DNA of 64,000 bases from positions 124,001 through 188,000 of the forward strand of contig NZ_OBEL01000004.1 of assembly GCF_900215605.1 (NCBI RefSeq), written 5' to 3'. A model generated the notes under the pieces. The model did not search any database, was not told the DNA's origin, and saw only the letters and a program-made list of their open reading frames with translations. Of the stretch, positions 21,036 to 64,000 are shown piece by piece. Positions within the stretch are counted from its first letter, which is position 1. Every line of letters starts with the position of its first letter. Both the position numbers and the translations under genes were made by a program. The DNA is from Cohaesibacter gelatinilyticus (GTDB lineage: Bacteria > Pseudomonadota > Alphaproteobacteria > Rhizobiales > Cohaesibacteraceae).

Positions 21036-21503
21036 ATGACACAAGACGAACCGGGCAACAAAACGTCCGCATTACCAAATGATCAATGGGGGTTGCTTGC
21101 GCTTGCAGCACTTGTGGCGTTGATCTCCACTTTGTCAGCCCTCTTCATCGGCGAGATCATGGGGCAGATGCCATGTCTGCTGTGCTGGTACCAGCGCATT
21201 TTCATGTTTCCTCTGGCAATCATCCTGATCATCGCGCTTTATCGCTCTGATGTTGGTATCTGGCTCTATGGGTTGCCTATGGCGATCGGCGGTTTGGGTT
21301 TTGCGCTCTATCACAGTGGCCTCTATGGTGGATTGATCCCAAAACCCATTGTTCCATGTTCTCAAGATGGTCCATCTTGTATGGATGCAAATATGACCAT
21401 TTTCTCCTTGCCACTTCCCTATCTATCAGTACTGGCTTTCCTGATCATTGTCGTAGCTCTCGGACTTCTGGCAATCAAAACCCGCGAAGGAAATGCCTCA
21501 TGA
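21036..21503 (+). CDS. Disulfide bond formation protein B (DsbB/BdbC family)
   Basis: 155 residues with four hydrophobic segments. The first periplasmic redox pair is CLLC in MPCLLCWYQRIFMFP, and the second pair is in PIVPCSQDGPSC, both in their usual positions. It would re-oxidise the thioredoxin-like partner and pass electrons to quinone. Its TGA overlaps the next gene's ATG (ATGA), so the two are translated together. Confidence 0.9.
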   Translation: MTQDEPGNKTSALPNDQWGLLALAALVALISTLSALFIGEIMGQMPCLLCWYQRIFMFPLAIILIIALYRSDVGIWLYGLPMAIGGLGFALYHSGLYGGLIPKPIVPCSQDGPSCMDANMTIFSLPLPYLSVLAFLIIVVALGLLAIKTREGNAS

Positions 21504-52096: not shown

Positions 52097-52726
52097 TCAT
52101 GATCGAGGGGTGAGAGCACTTCTGAACAGAAAATCCAGATATTTGGATGCATCTTCGAATCTGTCTTTGGCTTTTGGGCCAGTCAGTGTGCGTACCTGCA
52201 CATCAAAGTCGGCATAATGCTGTGTTGTGGACCAGATTGAAAAGAGCAGATGATGAGGATCTACATCATTGATTTTGCCTGTTGCAACCCAATTGGCAAT
52301 GACAGAGACCTTTTCATCAACCATCAGCTTCAAGGTGCCTGATATCAGAGTATCGATACGTGGGGCGCCTTGCAGGATTTCGTTTGCAAAAAGGCGGCTC
52401 TCACGCGGATAATCGCGTGCCATCTCAAGCTTGCGTTGAACATAGGCACAGATTTCTTCTACAGGCTCACCCTCTTCATTGAGCTGGTTCAGAGGATCCA
52501 GCCAGATATAGAGAAGACGCTTGATCAACTCTGCATGGACAGCTTCTTTATTGTCGAAATAATAGAGAAGGTTTGGTTTGGAGATCCCGGCTTTTTCCGC
52601 CACCTGATCAATTGTTGCTCCACGAAAACCATAGGCAGAGAAAATATCCAGCGCAGCAGAAAGAATCTGCTCTGTTTTTTCCTTCTGGATACGCGTTTTG
52701 CCTTTGGAATTTGAGGCTCTTGCCAT
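52097..52726 (-). CDS. rutR: TetR-family regulator, RutR-like
   Basis: 209 residues from the ATG at 52726 (AGAGAGATC upstream). The TetR HTH is ATIDQVAEKAGISKPNLLYYFDNKEA. The ligand domain keeps blocks that I recall from E. coli RutR: ARDYPRESRLFANEILQGAP, and DPHHLLFSIWSTTQHYADF. RutR senses uracil and controls pyrimidine catabolism. It lies beyond the end of the F420 operon on the same strand, separated by a hairpin. Sequences close to the RutR box occur in three promoters of this region. Confidence 0.85.
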   Translation of the reverse strand: MARASNSKGKTRIQKEKTEQILSAALDIFSAYGFRGATIDQVAEKAGISKPNLLYYFDNKEAVHAELIKRLLYIWLDPLNQLNEEGEPVEEICAYVQRKLEMARDYPRESRLFANEILQGAPRIDTLISGTLKLMVDEKVSVIANWVATGKINDVDPHHLLFSIWSTTQHYADFDVQVRTLTGPKAKDRFEDASKYLDFLFRSALTPRS

Positions 52727-52978
52727 TGTGTGAAGATCTCTCTTTTGAAATTTGCCCACGAGAAACTCGCAATGCATGTCTCTATTGCACTTTCCAGTCT
52801 TCAACCATAGGGAAAGCACGGAGCACACGCAATTATACGAAATTTTCTATCTGCTGGTTTTCTTCAATAGTTAAGTCCATTGCGAAATCGGTGTTGCCAA
52901 TAGCAGATAAAGCACAGAATTCAAAGTATCCAAATCACAGAAAAGTTGAATATGGCAGTTTGCTCCCTGGATTGTGAT

Positions 52979-53006
52979 AAGGCCGGGTGTTGAGAGACCC
53001 GGCCTT
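52979..53006. terminator. Hairpin at the end of the F420 operon
   Basis: AAGGCCGGGT (52979-52988) and ACCCGGCCTT (52997-53006) form a perfect 10-bp stem, 31 bases after the oxidoreductase stop. The T run on the minus strand is short, so termination may be partial. Confidence 0.65.
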
Positions 53007-53036
53007 GATCATGAGTGAAATTCGGTAAAGAGGAAA

Positions 53037-54038
53037 TCATGCAAAAGCGGGAATGATTTTCTCACCGTAATCGGCGATGATTTTCTCTTCGTTTCCACTA
53101 TCCAGATAGATATTGAACTGGGTTACACCCGCTTTTTCCAACTCGTTTAGTTTGGAAATATGCTCATCTGTTTCACCCAATACGCAGAAGCTGTCGATGA
53201 CATCATCAGTGATGAAGTCGAGATATGGGTTTGAACTCTGACCGTGCTTGGAATAGTCGTAGCCCTTGCGATCCTTGATATAGGACGTCAGGGAAGATGG
53301 AATATCTTCACGTTCGGTGCCATATTTTTCGACAATATCCGCGACATGATTGCCGACCATGGCAGGGAACCATTTGGTCGCCGCGCGGCCTTCCTCACGG
53401 GAACCAGTCCAGGCTGGTGCTGCCGCCTGAATACGGAAATTGGACATATCGCGTCCTTCGGCTTCACCTGCTGCCTTTGCCTGGTTACCCAGCCATTTAC
53501 AAATTGCTGGCTCAGCAATCTGCAGGATCAAACCATCGCCTACACGACCAGCAGAAGAAAGAGCTTTCGGACCATAGGCTGCCACCCAGACAGGGAGCTC
53601 ATATCCGTCGGCCCAAGGGAATTTTACCGGCTCCGGGCATTCGCCATATTGCGCTTCTTCGCCACGAATAAGAGCTTTTACCACATGGGTGAATTCTTCC
53701 AGACGTTTCAATGGCGCTGGCTTCTTCCCCATGACACGAACCGCACTATCACCACGACCAAGGCCAATATCAAAACGACCATTGGATTGTTTGGCGAGGG
53801 AGCCGAACAAGCTGGCTGCATGAGACCAGTCACGGGTGTTGGGGTTGGTTACACAAGGACCGAAGCGCATGGTCTTGGTGTGTTCCATGCACATGGCCAT
53901 TGCCACATAGCTCTCGCGCCACAGAATGTGACTGTCATAAAACCAGCAATAGGCAAAGCCAGCATTCTCTGCCTGGCGAACCAATGCCCGGGCGCGATCT
54001 GGCTCAACGAAGCCTTTAAAACAAATTCCAAATTCCAT
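53037..54038 (-). CDS. LLM-class F420-dependent oxidoreductase (TIGR03842-like)
   Basis: 333 residues, luciferase-like TIM barrel. MEFGICFKGFVEPDRARAL at the start, FGPCVTNPNTRDWSHAAS, GRFDIGLGRGDSAVR (the F420/flavin-phosphate loop region) and PVWVAAYGPKAL are typical of LLM F420 enzymes; the sequence fits the CPS_4087-type group as I remember it. AGGAGGATCTC precedes the ATG. It is the last gene of the F420 operon, 75 bases after npdG, so it is the likely consumer of F420H2. Its substrate is unknown. Confidence 0.85.
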   Translation of the reverse strand: MEFGICFKGFVEPDRARALVRQAENAGFAYCWFYDSHILWRESYVAMAMCMEHTKTMRFGPCVTNPNTRDWSHAASLFGSLAKQSNGRFDIGLGRGDSAVRVMGKKPAPLKRLEEFTHVVKALIRGEEAQYGECPEPVKFPWADGYELPVWVAAYGPKALSSAGRVGDGLILQIAEPAICKWLGNQAKAAGEAEGRDMSNFRIQAAAPAWTGSREEGRAATKWFPAMVGNHVADIVEKYGTEREDIPSSLTSYIKDRKGYDYSKHGQSSNPYLDFITDDVIDSFCVLGETDEHISKLNELEKAGVTQFNIYLDSGNEEKIIADYGEKIIPAFA

Positions 54039-54113: not shown

Positions 54114-54782
54114 TCAATGATCCGGAGCCCAGATCTTGATGCCAGCATGTGTGAAGGGAACGGCCTTGGAGATATTCTGACGGATCAGAATGGGTGTTAT
54201 GGCCTCGATGCAGCGTGCAGCTTGCGCATTGCCTGCGTTATAGGTCTGCACATCCAGCTTGGAGACAAGCGCCATGACCTTCTTGCGGGCTTCTAACGAG
54301 TTGCCACAAATCAGAATGTCGCAATTGATTGGCCAATCCAGATTGTTGAGGGTCGTGGCAGACACGTTATGCAGAGCGCCTATCACAGGGATATCGCTGC
54401 CAAGCAACGCTTGAGCTGCCTCAGTTGCAGATCCTTCCGGTGGCATCTCCACCAGTTTTGGATCGTTAGCTGCGAGAGGCACAACGATATCGACCAGAAT
54501 TTTGCCGGCAAGGTGTGGCCTCAGGCTTTCCAATGTCACATTGTGAGCAGAGAAAGGGACCGCCAGAACCACCATTTCGTCGGCTGCCTGTGTTGCAGCG
54601 ATATTATCGATGCCGATAATATCTGCTGATCCTTCTGGCAATTTCTTCATCAGAGAGGCCGCGATTTCCGCGCCGCGTATACCATCGCGTGAGCCAAGGG
54701 CGACGCGAACGCCTGCACGGGCAAAACGTAGGGCAAGGCCTTGTCCTTGCGGACCTGTGCCGCCAATGATTGCTATCGTCAT
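54114..54782 (-). CDS. npdG: NADPH-dependent F420 reductase
   Basis: 222 residues. The N-terminal nucleotide motif is [19 protein letters not shown] with SRD for the NADP phosphate. [22 protein letters not shown] and a central VGALHN-like '[10 protein letters not shown]' follow. It moves hydride between NADPH and F420 and so supplies F420H2. It overlaps cofE by 4 bases. Confidence 0.9.
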
Positions 54783-55603
54783 TTGAACATATTCTCCTTA
54801 TTGGGGCGCAACAGGTCTTGCGCTGCACTTTCAGTTTTCTGCCAATCCAGCCCACGGAACAGCACCACAGGTGTTTGGGCGGACTTGCGAATGACAAGTC
54901 CCGATGCTGCTGCCAGTTCATCGGCAAAAGCAGGCTCGGTTACACTGAGAAGACGACCATGGGCGTCGAGGTTGCCTTGCTCGCGAATGGTTGCGGGAAG
55001 GTCGGCCAAACCGACTGCGACATTCACTTGTCCGATGCGCCAAGGGCGGCCAAAGGTGTCGGTGATTGCAAATCCGATACGGGCGTTGAAGTGCCGGGAA
55101 AGGTAATCGCAGACTGCCTTTGCGCTGGCATCAGGATTGTGTGGCAGAAGGATGAGGCTTCCATCCTCACCGGTATTGGATTCATCAACTGCGGCATTGG
55201 CCGAAATGAAGCCAAGGCGGTGCTCGCAAATCATCGTGCCCTCATTTTGCTCAGGACGCTTGAAAGAGCGAATGACGCGCTTGCTTTGGGAGAGAATGAC
55301 TTCGATCTTGCGAGGGTCCTTGTTCAGTTCCTCCGCGTAGCGCATGGCTTCCTGACCCGGTGTTACATCGGCCATATTGACGACGGCGCCTTCGGCCTTG
55401 GAGAAAATTTTGTGAGCTGAGGTGAGAATGTCACCGTCAGTCAAGGATAGCTGAGCATTCTCCAGACACTTTGCGATGATCACTCCAAGATCGTCGCCTT
55501 CCGAAATCTCAGGGATATTGGGGATAGGTGCAATCTGCAGTGAGAAGGGGGACGAAGACAGGTTGGTAAGGCTGTCCAATGGTCTTGAATGAGCAAGTGT
55601 CAT
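54779..55603 (-). CDS. cofE: Coenzyme F420-0:L-glutamate ligase
   Basis: 274 residues, the size of the single-domain archaeal type. Visible family blocks: [49 protein letters not shown], and [19 protein letters not shown]. It adds glutamate to F420-0. It lacks the C-terminal nitroreductase-like domain found in actinobacterial FbiB. It overlaps cofC and npdG by 4 bases each. Confidence 0.92.
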
Positions 55604-56280
55604 GAGCGGGCCTCCTGAATGCGGAAAGAGCGCGTTTTCAACAGGTTGCGAATGGCAGAGGAAACAGGACGAGCCAAATCATTGGCGCTGTCGATATCGT
55701 GAGAAATACCTTCAAGTGGCAAGATTACAGCAAGAAGACCCACGTGCTCTGCCTCTTCCAGATGACGATGAAATGACTGTGCGCCATAGCAGAAGGGCAA
55801 GGCGTTCGGCGGGGTGATCATCAGTGCATTCGTACCTTGGTCTTGCGAGGGGCAAATGATGATGGAGCGATCAGTCCGTGCGCAACTTAGAAGACGAAGG
55901 TACTCTTTGCTGTCATGATCGGCGAGATCTGCGGGAAGAATGCAGACAGAGCGATAGTCATGGGCTGTTGCCCAGTCACATCCGGCGGCAACGGCTGCAT
56001 TGAGGCCGCCTTCATCGCTCTGCTGCAAAGTTCCCACACCAAAATCGCTGGCCAAATTGGTGATAGGCTGAGAATTCGTGACGACGAGAATGCCGAAATC
56101 ACATCCGGCTTGTTTCGAAAGACCGGTAAGAAAAGTCAAAGTCTGCCGATAAAGGGTCAATGCCAGACGTTGGCGTGTTCCATCTGTCAAGACATTGGAG
56201 AGGCGGCTTTTGGCACGTTTCGGATCCTTCATTGGTACGATGAAGAGTAGATCCTTAGGAGATTTTTCCTGATGTTTCAT
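55600..56280 (-). CDS. cofC: 2-phospho-L-lactate (or analogous) guanylyltransferase
   Basis: 226 residues, nucleotidyltransferase fold. Motifs: FIVPMKDPKRAKSRLSNVL for GTP binding, VCILPADLADHD, QDQGTNALMI and ISHDIDSANDL. It activates 2-phospholactate, phosphoenolpyruvate or 3-phosphoglycerate depending on the lineage. Which it uses here cannot be read from the sequence. Overlaps both neighbours by 4 bases. Confidence 0.9.
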   Translation of the reverse strand: MKHQEKSPKDLLFIVPMKDPKRAKSRLSNVLTDGTRQRLALTLYRQTLTFLTGLSKQAGCDFGILVVTNSQPITNLASDFGVGTLQQSDEGGLNAAVAAGCDWATAHDYRSVCILPADLADHDSKEYLRLLSCARTDRSIIICPSQDQGTNALMITPPNALPFCYGAQSFHRHLEEAEHVGLLAVILPLEGISHDIDSANDLARPVSSAIRNLLKTRSFRIQEARS

Positions 56281-57260
56281 TGGGCGGCCTCCGATGAGAC
56301 GAAACCATTGAATGACACATGATTGGCAAGGATCGACCGGGCCAGACGAACCTTGTCCGCCTGATCACGCATGGAAATATCATCAAGACCACAGGCAATC
56401 CCCATGTCTTCAATTTCAGCTGTCGCTTCACAATCCTGATCATCAATCACAATCTGGTCGATCAAATCGCGATAATGATTGGCAACCCCTATGGCGGATG
56501 CTTCCAGGCCCAGAGATGCCATGACCTTGTCGGCAGGGCCCTTGAATGGTTTTCCGGCAATCAAAGGGCTGACTGCAAGGATGGAAGCTTTGGAAGATTG
56601 GAGCGCATCTTTTAAGCCCGGAATGGACAGAATGGGCTCGATGCTGAGAATAGGATTGGACGGCGCAATGATGATCAGATCAGCTTGCTCAATTGCTGTC
56701 AGTGCTTGCGATGTAGGCTTGGCTTGTTCCGCGCCTTCAAAGCGAATGTCCAGCACATCTGGCGCGCATCTTTGGCGCACAAAATAGTCCTGAAACAGGA
56801 TCCAGCCTTCATTTGTTTTCAGTCTGGTCTGAACAACATCGTCGGTTGGCAAGATCAAAGGGACTTTGACGCCCAGAGATTGAGCAATTTCGCTGGCAAT
56901 TTCTGATCGGCTGTAACCCTGCCTTAGGCGGTTGGATCGATGGATATGAAGACCGAAGTCCTTGTCACCCAAAAACATCCAGGTGTCATTGCCAAGGATT
57001 TTGAGCATCTCAAGCGCTTTTGAGCCTTCATCTGCAAGGCCCCAGCCCTGATCACGATTGACCAATCCGGACAGGCTATAAGTCAGGGTGTCTATGTCAG
57101 GCGAGACCCACAGGCCGTGGAAGATTTCATCGTCGGCAATATTTCCGATGATTGAGAGACTGATCCCTTCCATTGCGGCCAGGCCTTCTGCCAGTTTTGC
57201 TCCACCCACGCCACCAGCAAGCAACAGGATATTGGGTTTGTTCACTTTAAACTGTGTCAT
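56277..57260 (-). CDS. cofD: 2-phospho-L-lactate transferase (F420-0 synthase)
   Basis: 327 residues from the ATG at 57260, which overlaps the cofH stop (TAATG); the frame back to 57317 is inside cofH. Motifs: LLAGGVGGAKLAEGLAAM, NIADDEIFHGLWVSPDIDTLTY, IIIAPSNPILSIEPIL, and the late FKGPADKVM. It joins the activated side chain to FO. Confidence 0.92.
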   Translation of the reverse strand: MTQFKVNKPNILLLAGGVGGAKLAEGLAAMEGISLSIIGNIADDEIFHGLWVSPDIDTLTYSLSGLVNRDQGWGLADEGSKALEMLKILGNDTWMFLGDKDFGLHIHRSNRLRQGYSRSEIASEIAQSLGVKVPLILPTDDVVQTRLKTNEGWILFQDYFVRQRCAPDVLDIRFEGAEQAKPTSQALTAIEQADLIIIAPSNPILSIEPILSIPGLKDALQSSKASILAVSPLIAGKPFKGPADKVMASLGLEASAIGVANHYRDLIDQIVIDDQDCEATAEIEDMGIACGLDDISMRDQADKVRLARSILANHVSFNGFVSSEAAQ

Positions 57261-58654
57261 TAGCTCGCTCCCCCATTTGCCGCATTTTTGCTTGCGCTTT
57301 GCCGCCCCCCAACCCAAAGCGATTGGCTTGGTTCGAGATGTCCTCTCTCACCAGCGCCAGCTTGCTCACGAACATCAGGGAACATGCGCAGGAAGCTGAG
57401 ATTCTGATCGACACTGCGCTCAACCAATGGCGCTTGCTCTTCAGGGTCGCTGTTGGCGTAGCAAGCCTTGGTCTCATAGATGGTGTTGCGTTGATAGGGG
57501 ACCCGTCCTGCCCCTCGAATGATCTGAACCATTTCATGGGGGGTAATTTCCTGGCCGAAGTCCGATCCGGCAGAACGGGAAATGCTTTCATTCATCAATG
57601 TGCCACCAAGGTCATTCACCCCGGCTTGCAACATCTGCCTTGCTCTATCTGGTCCCAGCTTTGTCCAGGAGACCTGAATATTGTCGATCCATCCGTGCAA
57701 CATAAGACGAGCGACTGCATGCATCTTGTCGACCTCCATTGAAGTCGGACCTGGGCGCACCTTGTCAGGATTTTGCGTGTAAAGCGGACTGTCAGAATGA
57801 ACGAAACTGAGGGGCACCAGCTCGGTAAAGCCACCGGTATCTTTTTGAATATCTCGCAACAGAGCGAGATGCGCTGCCCAATGCTCAGGTCCATCAATAT
57901 GGCCATACATGATAGTGGCGGTGGTCGGCAGTCCGACTTCATGAGCGGCCCGAATGATCTCAACCCATTTTTCTGTGCTGAGTTTGTTTTTGGTGAGCTG
58001 TTGGCGGATCTCGGTGTCGAGAATTTCGGCAGCTGTGCCCGGCATGGAACCAAGGCCTGCTTCCATCAAATCAGAGATGAAGTCGTGGTAGGACATGCGG
58101 CTCTTGGCTGCGCCATACCAGATCTCATAGGGTGAGAAGGCATGAATATGCATGTCTGGTAGGGCTGCTTTTATAGCCTTGCAAAGATCCCGATAATAGG
58201 TGCCTTCCAGCTTGGGGTGAAGTCCACCCTGAATGCAAACTTCCGTTGCTCCGCGATCCCAGGCTTCCTGAGCCCGGGCGACTACCTGATCAAATGACAG
58301 GAATTCCGCGCCTTTGTCTTCAGAGCGTTTGGCGAATCCGCAGAATTTGCAGCCCATGTAACAGATGTTGGTGAAGTTGATGTTGCGATTGACCACAAAG
58401 CCAACGCGATCGCCATGGACCTGATGACACAGATGGCTGGCTGTCCGTTTCAACGCATCCAGATCAGCTCCTTCGCATTCAAACAGTGTAATGCCTTCAG
58501 CAATGCTGATTTCCTCGCGAGCCAGTGCTTTGGCCAAAATCAGCCGAATTTGTTCGCTCAATGCACTGATCTCAAGGTTCAGGTCTCTTAAGGAGCGCAA
58601 TCCGGAGAAGGCAATCCGCTCTGCTGATGAGGAGAGTGAATTCGTAGGTGTCAT
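57260..58654 (-). CDS. cofH: FO synthase subunit 2 (radical SAM)
   Basis: 464 residues. The radical SAM cluster motif is CYMGCKFCGF (CxxxCxxC) about residue 100. HAFSPYEIWYGA, LPTTATIMYGHIDGPEHWAAHLALLR and DLGGTLMNESISRSAG are family blocks. A C-terminal tail of about 35 residues (REQAGAGERGHLEPSQ onward) extends beyond the core. It couples tyrosine to the diaminouracil. It is separate from CofG, not fused as in FbiC. Confidence 0.92.
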   Translation of the reverse strand: MTPTNSLSSSAERIAFSGLRSLRDLNLEISALSEQIRLILAKALAREEISIAEGITLFECEGADLDALKRTASHLCHQVHGDRVGFVVNRNINFTNICYMGCKFCGFAKRSEDKGAEFLSFDQVVARAQEAWDRGATEVCIQGGLHPKLEGTYYRDLCKAIKAALPDMHIHAFSPYEIWYGAAKSRMSYHDFISDLMEAGLGSMPGTAAEILDTEIRQQLTKNKLSTEKWVEIIRAAHEVGLPTTATIMYGHIDGPEHWAAHLALLRDIQKDTGGFTELVPLSFVHSDSPLYTQNPDKVRPGPTSMEVDKMHAVARLMLHGWIDNIQVSWTKLGPDRARQMLQAGVNDLGGTLMNESISRSAGSDFGQEITPHEMVQIIRGAGRVPYQRNTIYETKACYANSDPEEQAPLVERSVDQNLSFLRMFPDVREQAGAGERGHLEPSQSLWVGGRQSASKNAANGGAS

Positions 58655-59790
58655 ACCAAATCTCCTGAAACTTGATGTTTGGCCAGCCCATCGGTACGAG
58701 CCATGGCACTGGCGCGAGCAACGAGGGCGGGATCCATAAAGACATCGTGATTGCGAAGGAAGCGCGGATAGATGGTCAGGCGCTCTTGCAGGGTCAGGCC
58801 TGCTTTGGATGTAGAGGCGGCAAGGGCATCAATCTCTGGCCAGCTATGCTGCGGATTGATGAAGTCGATGGTTACAGGGGAAATGCCGCCCCAATCATTG
58901 ATACCGGCTGCCAGATAATCGGCGTGGCGCACATGCAGGTTTGGCGGAGCTTGCAGGCTGATTTCTGGAGACAGCATCAGGCGGGCAACGGCGAGTGTCC
59001 GCAACATGTCATCCAGACTTGGTTCTGGATGATTGGCCATTGCAATGTCTGGCTTTGTCTGGAAATTCTGAATGATCACTTCCTGAATGTGACCATGACG
59101 TCTATGTGCCTCATTGATGGCTGCGAGTGCTTCCACACGCTCTTCCCATGTTTCGCCAATACCAATCAGCAGACCTGTGGTGAAGGGAACCTGCTTCTGC
59201 CCGGTTCTCTCCAGAGTGCGCAGGCGTTGAACGGGAACCTTGTCCGGGCAGGCATAATGCGCTTGCCCTTTTTGGGTCAAGCGGCGGCTGATGGTCTCCA
59301 GCATCATACCCATGGAGGCGCTATATGGACGGAGCTGGTCGATCTCATCGTCAGACAATGTGCCAGCATTCACATGGGGTAGGAGAGAGGTCTCGTCGAG
59401 AACCAACTGACACATGTCTGCCAGATAGGCGACCATGCTGTCATAGCCCAGCTGGTTCAAAGCTGCGCGCGCTTTTTCATAGCGTAGCTCGGGCTTCTCA
59501 CCCAGACTGAAGAGCAATTCCTTGCATCCCTGATCTTCACCGCGTCTTGCCGTGGCAAGAACTTGCTCAGGAGACATGATGTTGGCGTCCGGATGATCGG
59601 GATGTTTGACGAAGGTGCAATAGGAGCAGGTATCCCTGCACATGTTGGTGAGAGGTACGAATACTTTGCGGGAATATGTGACCACATTCCCCCAGTGCTT
59701 TTCCCGGACATCCGATGCTGCTTGCATCAGATCTGCGAGCTCAGTTTCGCTGATATTTCCGAGTGTTAGAGCAGTCTCAAGTGAAAGCAT
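58651..59790 (-). CDS. cofG: FO synthase subunit 1 (radical SAM)
   Basis: 379 residues from the ATG at 59790, with GGGAGG 7 bases upstream; 59820 would add ten. The cluster motif is CRDTCSYCTF (CxxxCxxC). VNAGTLSDDEIDQLRPYSASMGMMLE, GETWEERVEALAAI and DWGGISPVTIDFINP are family blocks. It is first in the cof operon and overlaps cofH by 4 bases. Confidence 0.93.
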   Translation of the reverse strand: MLSLETALTLGNISETELADLMQAASDVREKHWGNVVTYSRKVFVPLTNMCRDTCSYCTFVKHPDHPDANIMSPEQVLATARRGEDQGCKELLFSLGEKPELRYEKARAALNQLGYDSMVAYLADMCQLVLDETSLLPHVNAGTLSDDEIDQLRPYSASMGMMLETISRRLTQKGQAHYACPDKVPVQRLRTLERTGQKQVPFTTGLLIGIGETWEERVEALAAINEAHRRHGHIQEVIIQNFQTKPDIAMANHPEPSLDDMLRTLAVARLMLSPEISLQAPPNLHVRHADYLAAGINDWGGISPVTIDFINPQHSWPEIDALAASTSKAGLTLQERLTIYPRFLRNHDVFMDPALVARASAMARTDGLAKHQVSGDLV

Positions 59791-59812
59791 GTTTTTACCT
59801 CCCGATAAAATT

Positions 59813-59828
59813 TTTATCAAAAGGTAAA
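59813..59828. promoter_or_regulatory. RutR-box-like site in the cofG promoter
   Basis: TTTATCAAAAGGTAAA matches the 16-mer at 63482 in 14 of 16 positions. On the minus strand a -35 TTGACC (59838-59833), 17 bases and a -10-like TAAAAA (59815-59810) make a promoter, which this site overlaps. Confidence 0.55.
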
Positions 59829-60088
59829 ATTGAGGTCAATGGATCAAGTGTGAAGTGCAAAGTTCGATGAATCTGAAAATAGCACTCAGAAACAGGAAGG
59901 GGGAATTTGCTTGGATTGTTTTCATATTATTGATTTATATATATTTATTTCGAAAATTGAAGTGGACTCGCGCCTTGTTTTGGCATGTATATGCATGTTT
60001 GGCGACTTCAGCGTTTATCACAGGGCTTAAGAAAAATTTAGCATATAGATTTCATGGAGTTAATCGAACTTTGAAATTTATTTATTTT
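59829..60088. other. AT-rich divergent intergenic region between cofG and pntA
   Basis: Very AT-rich DNA with an 81-codon open frame (59855-60100) that runs into the pntA promoter and has no recognisable features. I regard the region as regulatory rather than coding. Confidence 0.5.
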
Positions 60089-60104
60089 TTGACCATTTGA
60101 TAAA
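60089..60104. promoter_or_regulatory. RutR-box-like site in the pntA promoter
   Basis: TTGACCATTTGATAAA is the exact reverse complement of the site at 63482-63497 and matches 12 of 14 fixed positions of TTGACCAnnTGGTCAA. It overlaps the -35 of a likely promoter: TTGATA (60097-60102), 17 bases, TATCCT (60120-60125). Confidence 0.65.
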
Positions 60105-60216
60105 TTTATTTTTCTTATCTATCCTAGCCTCAATAATAATGAGCCATAGGAGCATATGTTCCTGGGCCAGCCATCAACAATACGGGCTCGCTCTGTTCGT
60201 TGAAGGAGGAACAAAA

Positions 60217-61788
60217 TTGAAGATAGGAACACCTAGAGAGGTGTTTGGTGGGGAGGCTCGTGTTGGAATGACGCCTTCAGTTGCCAAGCATTTACAGAAG
60301 CTGGGCTATGAGTGTGCGATTGAGATTGGTGCGGGTCAGGCAGCGGGTTTTTCGGATGCGGACTATGAAGCGGCGGGCGTTGAGATCATTGCAACGGCAG
60401 CGGCTTTGTGGAAGGCTTCTGACATCATCGCCAAGGTCCGTCAGCCAAATGTGACCGAGACCAAACGCCTGAACAAGAACAAGACGCTGATCAGCTTCTT
60501 CAACCCGGCCGGGAATGAGGAAGGCATGGAGATTGCGAAGTCCAAGGGCGCCAATGTGATTGCGATGGAAATGGTCCCTCGTATCTCACGTGCCCAGAAG
60601 ATGGATGCTCTGTCCTCCATGGCCAATATTGCCGGCTATCGTGCGGTGATTGAGGCTGGCAACAATTTCGGACGCTTCTTCACCGGTCAGATCACGGCAG
60701 CGGGCAAGGTTCCGCCAGCCAAGGTCCTGGTGATTGGAGCAGGCGTTGCAGGTCTGGCAGCGATTGGCACCTCTACCTCTCTTGGTGCCATCACTTATGC
60801 CTTTGACGTGCGCCCTGAAGTGGCCGAGCAGGTTGAATCCATGGGCGCGGAATTCGTCTATCTGGATTTTGAGGAAGAACAGCAGGATGGTGCTGCCACA
60901 GGCGGCTATGCAGCTGTCTCCTCTCCGGAGTTCCGCGAAGCCCAGCTGGCCAAGTTCCGTGAACTGGCACCAGAGATTGATATCGTCATCACCACCGCCC
61001 TGATCCCGAACCGTGAAGCACCGGAGCTGTGGACCGAGGATATGGTTGCCTCCATGAAGACCGGATCCGTGATCGTGGATCTGGCAGCGGAAAAGGGTGG
61101 CAATTGCAAGCTGACCGTGGCTGATGAGAAGATCGTGACCGAGAATGGTGTGACCATCATCGGCTATACCGATTTCCCATCCCGCATGGCCAATCAATCT
61201 TCCGAGCTTTATGCCTCCAATATCCGTCACATGCTGACCGATCTGACCCCTGAGAAGGATGGCCAGGTTGTCCATGATATGGAAGATGATGTGATCCGTG
61301 GTGCGACCGTCACCTATCAGGGTGAGATCACCTTCCCGCCTCCTCCTCCAAAGATTGCAGCCATTGCGGCTCAGCCGAAGAAGGAAGTGAAGGAGCTGAC
61401 GCCGGAAGAGAAGAGAGCGGCCGAGGTTGCCGAGTTCAAGGCCCAGACCAGGAGCCAGGTGACCCTGCTTGGCGTTGGTACGGCTCTTATGTTGCTCGTC
61501 GGTGCTGTGGCGCCTGCCAGCTTCATGCAGCATTTCATTGTGTTTGTGCTGGCCTGTTTCGTGGGCTTCCAGGTCATCTGGAATGTCTCTCACAGCCTGC
61601 ATACGCCTTTGATGGCGGTGACCAACGCCATTTCATCCATCATCATTCTGGGGGCCCTGATGCAGATCGGCTCCGGTTCCTGGCTGGTGATCATCCTGGC
61701 GGCCCTGTCCGTCTTCATGGCCGGCATCAACATCTTTGGTGGGTTCCTGGTCACCCGGCGCATGCTCGCCATGTTCCAGAAGTCATAA
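60217..61788 (+). CDS. pntA: NAD(P) transhydrogenase subunit alpha (fused alpha1-alpha2)
   Basis: 523 residues from the TTG at 60217, chosen because AAGGAGG lies 7 bases upstream and the protein then begins [19 protein letters not shown] as expected. The NAD domain has [17 protein letters not shown]. About three C-terminal membrane segments follow, so alpha1 and alpha2 are fused as in E. coli PntA rather than split. It uses the proton gradient to make NADPH from NADH. Confidence 0.92.
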
Positions 61789-61798
61789 GGAGGGCGAC

Positions 61799-63232
61799 AT
61801 GGATTTTGGTTTTACCACTGCCGCCTATGTGGTTGCGGCTGTTCTTTTCATTCTTAGCCTTGGCGGTCTGTCCGGTCAGGAAAGCGCCAAGCGCGCTGTC
61901 TGGTATGGCATTGCCGGTATGGCTCTGGCGGTTCTCGCCACCCTGATTGGTCCGGGCTCCGGCCTGTGGCTGCTCTCGCTCCTGCTGATTGCCGGTGGCG
62001 GTGCCATTGGCTATCAGGTGGCGCAAAAGGTTCAGATGACCGAGATGCCACAGCTTGTGGCTGCGATGCACTCTCTCGTTGGTCTGGCGGCTGTCTTTGT
62101 CGGCTTCAATGCCGATATCGAACTGAGCCGTGTTCTGGCCATGGACGAGAGTGCCCGCAAGGGTCTGGAAGGCTTTGCTGCTCTGCTGGCCAAGAAGTCC
62201 AGCGCCGAGCTGTCCATCCTCAAGGTTGAAGTCTTCCTTGGCATCTTCATTGGTGCTGTGACCTTCACCGGCTCTGTCATTGCCTTTGGCAAGCTGGCAG
62301 GCAAGGTGACTTCCGCTGCAGAAAAACTGCCCGGTGGTCATGCCCTCAATGCCGGTGCAGCCATTGGCTCCCTGATCCTCGGCATCATGTATTTCAATGA
62401 CGCTGGTATCTGGACCCTTGTGGTCATGACCCTGCTGGCCTTCTTCATTGGCTATCACCTGATCATGGGCATTGGTGGCGCGGATATGCCGGTTGTTGTG
62501 TCCATGCTCAACTCCTATTCCGGTTGGGCGGCAGCGGCCATTGGTTTCTCCCTTGGCAATGACCTTCTTATCGTGGTCGGTGCGCTTGTTGGCTCCTCCG
62601 GTGCGATCCTGTCCTACATCATGTGCAAGGCCATGAACCGCAACTTTGTCTCTGTGATCCTTGGCGGCTTTGGTGGCACCGGTGGTCCTGCGATGGAAGT
62701 GTCTGGTGAGATGATTGCCATCGAGTCTGATGGGGTTGTTGCAGCGTTGGAAGAGGCTGACAGTGTCATCATCATTCCAGGCTATGGCATGGCTGTGGCG
62801 CAGGCTCAGCAGTCCGTATCCGAGTTGACCAAGCGTCTGCGTGCCAAGGGCAAGAATGTCCGCTTTGCCATCCATCCGGTGGCTGGCCGTCTTCCCGGTC
62901 ACATGAATGTTCTGCTGGCTGAAGCCAAGGTTCCTTATGACATCGTTCTGGAAATGGACGAGATCAATGAGGACTTCCCGGAAACCGATGTGGCCATCGT
63001 CATTGGCTCCAATGACATCGTCAATCCGGCGGCACAGGATGATCCGAACAGCCCAATCGCTGGCATGCCCGTCCTTGAATGCTGGAAGGCCAAGCAGGTC
63101 TTCGTTTCCAAGCGCGGACAAGGCACCGGTTATTCCGGCATCGAAAACCCGCTCTTCTACAAGGAAAATACCCGCATGTTCTACGGAGACGCTAAAGCAT
63201 CTCTAGATAGCCTATTGGGATCAATTTCATGA
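61799..63232 (+). CDS. pntB: NAD(P) transhydrogenase subunit beta
   Basis: 477 residues from the ATG at 61799 (AAGGAGGGCGAC upstream). The N-terminal half has about eight membrane segments; the C-terminal NADP domain has [17 protein letters not shown] and [18 protein letters not shown], read in parts, ending [10 protein letters not shown]. It starts 10 bases after pntA. pntAB codons look more GC-rich than the flanking DNA. Confidence 0.94.
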
Positions 63233-63263
63233 GATTTGTCCAGAGGAAGAATTGAGCAAAAAG

Positions 63264-63279
63264 AGAACCAAATGGTCAA
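63264..63279. promoter_or_regulatory. Possible second RutR-box-like site downstream of pntB
   Basis: AGAACCAAATGGTCAA has a full right half TGGTCAA and a partial left half (ACCA). 11 of 14 fixed positions match the RutR box. It lies 32 bases after the pntB stop. Confidence 0.4.
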
Positions 63280-63332
63280 AAAATAAACAAAAGAATTCGG
63301 AATTTTTGACATAAATACTCTGTTTTCTACTC

Positions 63333-63348
63333 TGGACCATTTCTAAAA
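63333..63348. promoter_or_regulatory. Weak RutR-half-site
   Basis: TGGACCATTTCTAAAA keeps a good left half (6 of 7) but a poor right half (3 of 7). It lies just after a TTGACA (63306-63311) that could be a -35. Confidence 0.25.
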
Positions 63349-63452
63349 CAAGGTCTAACAGACTGAGAGAAAAGGCTAAAAGTAGGGAAAAGTCGTCAAC
63401 TTTGCCTTTTGTGGTCGATTTTTTCAACAACAGAACAAAATTAAATTCAAGA

Positions 63453-63497
63453 TTGACTGTCTGATTAAAATATTCTTAAATTTTATCAAATGGTCAA
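63453..63497 (+). promoter_or_regulatory. Promoter and RutR-box-like operator of the aminotransferase gene
   Basis: TTGACT (63453-63458), 17 bases, TTAAAT (63476-63481) form a good -35/-10 pair. The 16-mer TTTATCAAATGGTCAA (63482-63497) follows immediately and covers the expected transcription start. It matches 12 of 14 fixed positions of the RutR box and is identical, inverted, to the pntA site. Confidence 0.7.
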
Positions 63498-63516
63498 ATT
63501 TGAGATGGAGATCAAG

Positions 63517-64000
63517 ATGAACGTCGCTACCTCAGCAGTGCCGAATGACCTAAATGCCTTCTGGATGCCATTCACATCCAATCGCCAGTTCAAAAAGTCG
63601 CCGCGCATGTTTGTCGCTGCAGACGGCATGTATTATACCACCTCGGACGGCCGTCAGGTTCTGGATGGAACCGCAGGGCTGTGGTGTGTCAATGCTGGCC
63701 ATAAGCAGCCTAAGATTGTTGAAGCAGTCAAGAACCAGATTGAAGAGCTGGATTATGCGCCCGCATTTCAGATGGGCCATCCAAAGGCATTTGAGCTGGC
63801 CAATCGTCTGGCAGATCTTGCTCCGGGTGATCTCAACCATGTTTTCTACACCAATTCCGGGTCTGAATCCGTTGAAACTGCTCTGAAACTGGCCATTGCC
63901 TATCATCGTGCCAAAGGGCAGGGGACACGCACTCGCCTGATTGGTCGCGAACGCGGCTATCATGGTGTGAATTTTGGCGGTATCTCTGTTGGTGGTATCG
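63517..64000 (+). CDS. Omega-amino acid (beta-alanine):pyruvate aminotransferase, N-terminal part
   Basis: 161 residues before the window ends. NAFWMPFTSNRQFKKSPRM, LWCVNAGHKQPKIVEAV, DYAPAFQMGHP, HVFYTNSGSESVETALK and RERGYHGVNFGGISVGG match class-III omega-amino acid:pyruvate transaminases, in which the PLP lysine lies further on. The enzyme would convert beta-alanine to malonate semialdehyde, the last step of reductive pyrimidine breakdown. GAGATGGAGATCAAG precedes the ATG. Confidence 0.85.
   Translation, partial: MNVATSAVPNDLNAFWMPFTSNRQFKKSPRMFVAADGMYYTTSDGRQVLDGTAGLWCVNAGHKQPKIVEAVKNQIEELDYAPAFQMGHPKAFELANRLADLAPGDLNHVFYTNSGSESVETALKLAIAYHRAKGQGTRTRLIGRERGYHGVNFGGISVGGI

Follow-up and report, generated by a model that had tools for sequence, protein, structure and literature searches.

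I analysed a 64,000-nucleotide stretch of the Cohaesibacter gelatinilyticus genome (the window; C4:124001-188000 of a 5.2 Mb genome of 99.55% completeness), in which the genes for coenzyme F420 synthesis, for the transhydrogenase PntAB and for beta-alanine aminotransferase share a palindromic box resembling that of the uracil regulator RutR. I conclude with fairly good confidence that these genes form a regulon responding to uracil, and that its F420 pathway serves an F420H2-dependent uracil reductase. The candidate reductase is the LLM F420 oxidoreductase of family TIGR03842 (LLM in the following). Support comes from the sites, their conservation, the gene order, the absence of PreA and RutA, the distribution of LLM, its predicted F420-type fold and the uracil pocket of the regulator. 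The genes and sites are as follows.

52097-52726, minus strand: RutR/PydR-like TetR-family regulator; best NCBIfam matches are RutR models, below cut-off, with E. coli RutR as the closest structure
53037-54038, minus strand: LLM F420 oxidoreductase TIGR03842, proposed F420H2-dependent uracil (dihydropyrimidine) reductase; 503 bits, cut-off 295
54114-54782, minus strand: fno/npdG, NADPH-dependent F420 reductase; 183 bits, cut-off 150
54779-55603, minus strand: cofE, F420-0:glutamate ligase; 226 bits, cut-off 181
55600-56280, minus strand: cofC; 143 bits, cut-off 105
56277-57260, minus strand: cofD; 293 bits, cut-off 257
57260-58654, minus strand: cofH; 499 bits, cut-off 374
58651-59790, minus strand: cofG, first gene of the F420 operon; 467 bits, cut-off 213
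59792-59811, no strand: possible second box abutting the first, over the cofG ribosome-binding site; matrix score 18.8
59811-59830, no strand: RutR-like box at cofG; matrix score 24.5
60087-60106, no strand: RutR-like box 5′ of pntA; matrix score 22.7
60217-61788, plus strand: pntA, transhydrogenase alpha subunit; 807 bits, TTG start picked by eye
61799-63232, plus strand: pntB, transhydrogenase beta subunit; 659 bits, slightly below the curated 689
63480-63499, no strand: RutR-like box at the pyrimidine-catabolism operon; matrix score 25.0
63517-64000, plus strand: aptA, omega-aminotransferase (beta-alanine), truncated by the window end; AptA model 765 bits, cut-off 500

Thus, the minus strand reads cofG, cofH, cofD, cofC, cofE, fno, LLM and the regulator gene in this order, while pntAB diverges from cofG and is followed by the aminotransferase gene. 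The cof, fno and LLM proteins exceed their NCBIfam family cut-offs and the regulator lies below its own. A metagenome-assembled genome named Cohaesibacter sp. (L123; L and G numbers denote loci and genomes) has the identical gene order and an LLM 97% identical to that of the window.

The word TTTATCAAATGGTCAA lies at 63482-63497 on the plus strand, its exact reverse complement at 60089-60104, and a copy with two mismatches at 59813-59828. An earlier note on this DNA had reported the exact pair at the aminotransferase gene and pntA and a 14/16 version 5′ of cofG, and all of these coordinates were reproduced. When up to three mismatches are allowed, the window holds four matches (0.91 expected; 0 of 100 shuffles reach four), the fourth being 21071-21086 with three mismatches. 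Genome-wide, 12 places match with at most two mismatches, against one for the reversed control. Two of them, C4:89975 and C4:90253, lie some 34 kb ahead of the window, just 5′ of a gene for cytosine deaminase (766 bits); the former is identical in sequence to the cofG copy and the latter lies 278 bp on. The deaminase gene is followed by genes that read, by eye, as an ABC transporter, whose binding protein reaches 77 bits with a BMP-type model and so stays under its cut-off. The other seven genome matches were not shown to be regulon members; six lie inside reading frames and were dropped, and C4:378529 is intergenic, downstream of a reading frame.

The RutR box is TTGACCAnnTGGTCAA. The two exact copies differ from it at two positions each and the cofG copy, counted by eye, at four, in agreement with the likeness that the earlier note had seen. 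The same note had placed the sites on core promoters, which is only plausible: the −35/−10 matches found reach 9 of 12 positions, and their numbers (3 versus 1.8 and 2 versus 1.1 in shuffles) show no clear excess. The strict E. coli box was tried as a genome-wide search word and was not useful (62 places versus 33 for the reversed control); a lineage motif was therefore derived. The palindromic matrix trained on cofG promoters has the 20 bp consensus WTTTKACCWNNWGGTMAAAW. In its relaxed form, the lineage motif finds 14 places in the genome versus 6 for the reversed control, and the only perfect places are the three at cofG, aptA and cytosine deaminase. Beyond the three named sites, the matrix finds a single window site above 12, the one abutting the cofG box, which may be a by-product of the overlapping ribosome-binding site. 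No box scoring above 8 was found by the matrix in the gap of about 310 bp between LLM and the regulator gene (52727-53036).

Is the box conserved in relatives? LLM proteins from 17 loci were aligned, and 80 loci of named genomes were taken, the best 80 of 447; they are not independent, since several belong to Pseudovibrio, Leisingera and Limimaricola. These loci, the window itself and L109-L122 gave 50 cofG promoters after the removal of near-duplicates. The E. coli-type consensus with at most three mismatches was found in 33 of the 50 (0.9 expected from shuffles), while none of 60 permuted-palindrome controls matched more than 2. By the same measure, the box is enriched before pntA (5/9; 0.3 expected), aptA (2/6; 0.1), the carbamoylase gene (4/20; 0.2) and LLM (12/69; 1.1). 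Conservation at orthologous promoters was the in silico test proposed by the earlier note, and the motif came through it at cofG, pntA and aptA. Genes internal to operons are near chance, namely cofH (2/48; 0.4 expected), cofD (2/53; 1.1), cofE (0/65; 0.4), fno (2/55; 1.2) and dihydropyrimidinase (0/20; 0.7), and single permuted palindromes scored high in coding sequence (10 upstream of cofH and 19 upstream of fno). In a leave-one-out scan with the 20 bp matrix, 41 of the 50 cofG promoters exceed the 99% shuffle level. All nine other loci with the divergent cofG-pntA arrangement have at least two boxes (score >10) in the gap, and the pntA-side box is weak (12-14) in six of them.

The box also occurs in other gene arrangements. 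In nine loci with an LLM-headed transcript (L114, L121, L122, L161, L165, L172, L176, L183 and L194), a box with at most three mismatches lies before LLM, and L161 and L172, both from Roseibium, have the exact 16-mer of the window there. The same box (score >13) precedes preT, a gene named by its position beside PreA, in all eight PreTA loci fetched, including that of G282, from the same family as the window but a different genus; in L208 the longest frame covers the box, which is nevertheless upstream of the likely true start. Since the same box stands before preT and at the LLM and cof loci, the regulator seems to keep its slot while the enzyme changes. Several related genomes also have the box 5′ of a carbamoylase or aminotransferase gene, with a RutR-like gene next to it.

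The protein encoded at 52097-52726, called RutR-like by the earlier note, indeed has RutR models as its best matches. It scores 235 versus 368 bits (TIGR03613) and 212 versus 230 bits (NF011584) against the RutR equivalogs, and both scores are below the cut-offs; thus, the protein resembles RutR but does not formally qualify as one. Its closest solved structures are those of E. coli RutR (193 bits). The uracil contacts of E. coli RutR are W77, Y97, W167, Q171 and Q179′ (PMC10891134). The window regulator keeps all five (W77, Y97, W167, Q171 and Q179), as do 37 of 37 RutR-like frames in the window and L109-L218, counted at E ≤1e-20 to E. coli RutR, a filter that missed some genes seen by tblastn. 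RutR-like genes are present in 31 of the 80 loci. Box conservation, these genes and the intact uracil pocket support the earlier proposal that one uracil-responsive regulator, whose binding to the boxes is predicted from sequence, joins F420 synthesis, the transhydrogenase and pyrimidine catabolism.

The aptA operon runs on beyond the window (L028). Next comes a carbamoylase/amidohydrolase gene, whose product fits a subfamily model of allantoate amidohydrolases (702 versus 452 bits), so that its substrate here is a presumption. It is followed by genes for a dihydropyrimidinase (593 bits against a cut-off of 393) and for a nucleobase symporter of the NCS1 type. In this genome, PreA was not found (best match 35 bits, cut-off 335), and a search for RutA found none. 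Thus, the operon encodes the reductive pyrimidine pathway except for PreA, which would catalyse the first step. This is the rationale that the earlier note missed: the PreA-less pathway is headed by aptA, and the F420 operon closes with a reductase of F420 type that could stand in for PreA.

The distribution of the genes points in the same direction. A class-level survey found TIGR03842 over its cut-off in only 2 of 240 genomes and was too sparse, so the order level was used. Among 199 genomes of the order, LLM occurs in 15, CofG in 21, PreA in 67, dihydropyrimidinase in 117 and RutA in 7. None of the 15 LLM genomes has PreA (Fisher p 0.003), 11 have CofG (p 1e-9; both p-values ignore relatedness, and the LLM genomes span 5 genera), and all 15 have dihydropyrimidinase. 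In the 82 genomes with a strong dihydropyrimidinase match, PreA was found in 62, LLM in 15, both in none and neither in 5; the E-value threshold was chosen post hoc, and with looser ones neither rises to as many as 37 of 117 while both stays at 0. A swap is seen within one genus, where G325 has LLM and cofG while its siblings G289, G359, G388 and G413, one of them only 75% complete, have PreA and lack LLM and cofG. In L179, LLM lies directly 5′ of the carbamoylase, dihydropyrimidinase and importer genes, where PreA stands in related operons. Paracoccus denitrificans (L164) has the cluster with two boxes, and PreA was not found in it. LLM best fills the gap left by PreA.

When the LLM profile was compared with the PDB, Mer, the F420-dependent methylene-tetrahydromethanopterin reductase, ranked first (130 bits). 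The AlphaFold2 model of LLM (mean pLDDT 84.6) also has Mer as its best fold match (TM about 0.8), and the first 17 PDB matches given by Foldseek are all F420-dependent enzymes. In view of these fold and sequence matches, it is likely that LLM uses F420 as its cofactor, as far as a predicted model can tell. CofE was found in 70 of the 80 loci; for the ten named loci without it nearby, seven genomes have it over the cut-off elsewhere, one has a partial match and two (2.0 and 2.6 Mb) have none.

I also noticed a second, divergent type of F420 cluster adjoining LLM in L161, L165, L172, L176, L183 and L194, with 31-59% identity to the window genes; no fno was seen near these clusters. The two F420 gene types seem to have met the same LLM enzyme independently. 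A further locus, L143, in a record titled Nocardioides marinus, has a cluster of alphaproteobacterial type whose LLM shares 83% identity with that of the window, and the assembly is probably mislabelled or contaminated.

How would the regulon work? The repressor encoded at 52097-52726 would sit on the palindromes of 16-20 bp that precede cofG, pntA, aptA and the operon of the cytosine deaminase gene, until the binding of uracil released it. Pyrimidine uptake and deamination, dihydropyrimidinase, beta-ureidopropionase and beta-alanine aminotransferase would then be induced jointly with the F420 pathway, Fno, PntAB and LLM (53037-54038). The task of the iron-sulfur flavoenzyme PreTA would fall to LLM, which would use F420H2 to convert uracil, and perhaps thymine, into its dihydro derivative, and electrons would pass from NADH via PntAB to NADPH, via Fno to F420H2 and finally to uracil. 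Binding, uracil induction, the reaction and the electron path are what I infer. In a broader form, it seems fairly likely that many Alphaproteobacteria make F420 mainly for pyrimidine degradation, with TIGR03842 as an F420H2-dependent uracil/thymine reductase unrelated to dihydropyrimidine dehydrogenase, that a uracil sensor makes F420 synthesis follow demand, with a co-regulated transhydrogenase feeding it, and that some lineages import an F420 precursor.

Several observations weigh against this proposal. When 27 named LLM genomes, mostly isolates, were selected from the 80 loci and checked for PreA, 13 had it as well: one Roseibium and twelve of the Roseobacter group. Thus, LLM does not always replace PreA, and strict replacement everywhere was ruled out. 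In six of these double genomes that were examined, PreTA lies on a different contig from LLM; preT has the box in 6/6, and PreTA has its own carbamoylase and dihydropyrimidinase in 5/6. In three of the six (L133, L141 and L167), carbamoylase and dihydropyrimidinase occur a second time, in the LLM cluster. The F420 route in such genomes would be an isoenzyme or a specialist. At the order level, 10 of the 21 CofG genomes lack LLM, indicating that F420 has other uses, and the LLM-bearing genome G244 also has RutA. TIGR03842 is far from any tested enzyme, with 26-27% identity to its best Mer matches. The box was missing from 9 of the 50 cofG promoters (L109-L113, L137, L139 of Cohaesibacter type, L157 and L197), no box above 13 was found in L203-L207 of the window's genus or in L213, L214 and L179, and the LLM-first loci L178, L184, L187, L191 and L195 have no match at three mismatches or fewer.

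The five other genomes from the genus of the window have cofG inside a long series of genes that all point the same way, starting with an aldehyde dehydrogenase gene (label by eye; 5/5), which is preceded by an aminotransferase gene in 3/5. The series also holds the carbamoylase, dihydropyrimidinase, ABC importer, cof and LLM genes, and this linkage counts in favour of the proposal. The recognition helix of the adjacent RutR-like protein in these five genomes differs, reading PKSNVVYYF or PKSNIVYYF versus SKPNLLYYF. As to G244, four tandem RutA-like genes (510-525 bits) were seen at G244:C34:29794-34320.

Could the regulon be right and the substrate wrong? LLM might act on another pyrimidine-derived compound, such as thymine, a modified base or a later intermediate, while an unrecognised enzyme reduces uracil. 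This fits the 13 named genomes that retain PreA and a family with no known substrate; however, the other 14 named genomes and all 15 order-level LLM genomes lack PreA, the latter having dihydropyrimidinase nonetheless, LLM takes PreA's operon position in L179, and the LLM clusters of L133, L141 and L167 have their own second carbamoylase and dihydropyrimidinase. I consider this substrate alternative unlikely, though worth keeping in mind. RutA is a luciferase-family enzyme controlled by RutR, and in that light LLM could be an FMN-dependent (flavin mononucleotide-dependent), RutA-like oxidative ring opener with F420 genes merely as neighbours. Yet F420 enzymes are what it matches best in both sequence and fold, CofE is present in 70 of the 80 loci and in most of the other ten genomes (seven elsewhere, one partial, two none), and oxidative opening would need no dihydropyrimidinase, which is present in 15/15. 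A RutA-like role is thus very improbable.

The doubt may also be directed at the boxes. They might belong to another TetR-type regulator, the uracil link being accidental, as the window protein is under the NCBIfam RutR cut-offs and other regulators of the genome may be candidates. But the box resembles the RutR box, also occurs 5′ of preT and, where a RutR-like gene is adjacent, 5′ of carbamoylase or aminotransferase genes in several relatives, and the uracil pocket is intact; I give such a regulator very little chance. As for mere likeness of three AT-rich 16-mers, the third copy matches at only 14 of 16 positions and the promoters are AT-rich, but the window shuffles, the genome count of 12 against 1 and the conservation at cofG promoters reject a chance origin, which is hardly credible. 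The uracil-sensing regulon with an F420H2-dependent uracil reductase therefore remains the preferred explanation.

Pseudomonas putida PydR, a RutR-like regulator, reportedly represses the dihydropyrimidine dehydrogenase gene. The RutR regulon of E. coli and the PydR regulon of P. putida resemble the present one in having a TetR-type regulator with a uracil pocket, a palindrome of about 16 bp and control of pyrimidine catabolism (PMC10891134). In contrast, the regulon described here adds F420 synthesis, Fno, PntAB and an F420-type reductase and is without dihydropyrimidine dehydrogenase. A reconstruction of RutR regulons covering 68 proteobacterial genomes found that the motif differs between taxa (PMC5343134). 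The reductive Pyd pathway with PreTA/PydA likewise has dihydropyrimidinase, beta-ureidopropionase and beta-alanine aminotransferase, whereas the first enzyme proposed here would have a luciferase-like fold, would use F420H2 and would have no kinship with PreA, which resembles dihydroorotate dehydrogenase. Electron donors are known to differ among the first enzymes of the Pyd pathway, one example being the ferredoxin-dependent PydAc of Clostridium chromiireducens (PMC7332683). Mer, the closest to LLM in sequence and fold, differs in that LLM adjoins pyrimidine genes. The Chloroflexota uric-acid clusters have a putative F420-dependent luciferase-family yanthine reductase (PMC12507026); there an F420 enzyme is predicted in place of YgfK/UacX in purine breakdown. 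That enzyme belongs to a different pathway and phylum. The earlier note knew of no regulon joining F420 and pyrimidine catabolism, and among the open-licence literature matches listed I found no F420-dependent uracil reductase, no F420/RutR regulon and no F420 in pyrimidine breakdown.

A 2021 review treats the reason for F420 in Proteobacteria as unanswered and gives only trace amounts for Paracoccus denitrificans and Oligotropha carboxidovorans (PMC8498797). If true, a uracil-induced F420 pathway would account for trace F420 in ordinary media, and an entire cofactor pathway would be induced by the substrate of one reaction. In people, dihydropyrimidine dehydrogenase clears 5-fluorouracil; the enzyme proposed here would be a uracil-reducing enzyme unrelated to it.

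Four order-level genomes, G371 and three of one genus, have LLM but lack CofG. G371 (78% complete) has cofD, cofC, cofE and fno beside LLM. The cofG-less genus has CofE in 3/3 genomes and an F420-0-type importer beside LLM in the two examined; in G391, CofE scores 212 bits (cut-off 181) and the importer binding protein beside LLM 388 versus a cut-off of 392. Similarly, parts of a putative F420-0 ABC importer and CofE adjoin a boxed LLM in two loci of genomes without cofG (L114, 11641-15447; L121, 5984-9676), and L114 also has an F420-dependent glucose-6-phosphate dehydrogenase next to it. The importer and CofE in these cofG-less LLM genomes likely represent salvage of a cofactor precursor for pyrimidine catabolism. 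An ABC importer of another kind (ATPase, permeases and mostly a binding protein, labelled by eye) regularly comes after dihydropyrimidinase in L203-L212 and L215-L218, and is probably a pyrimidine importer.

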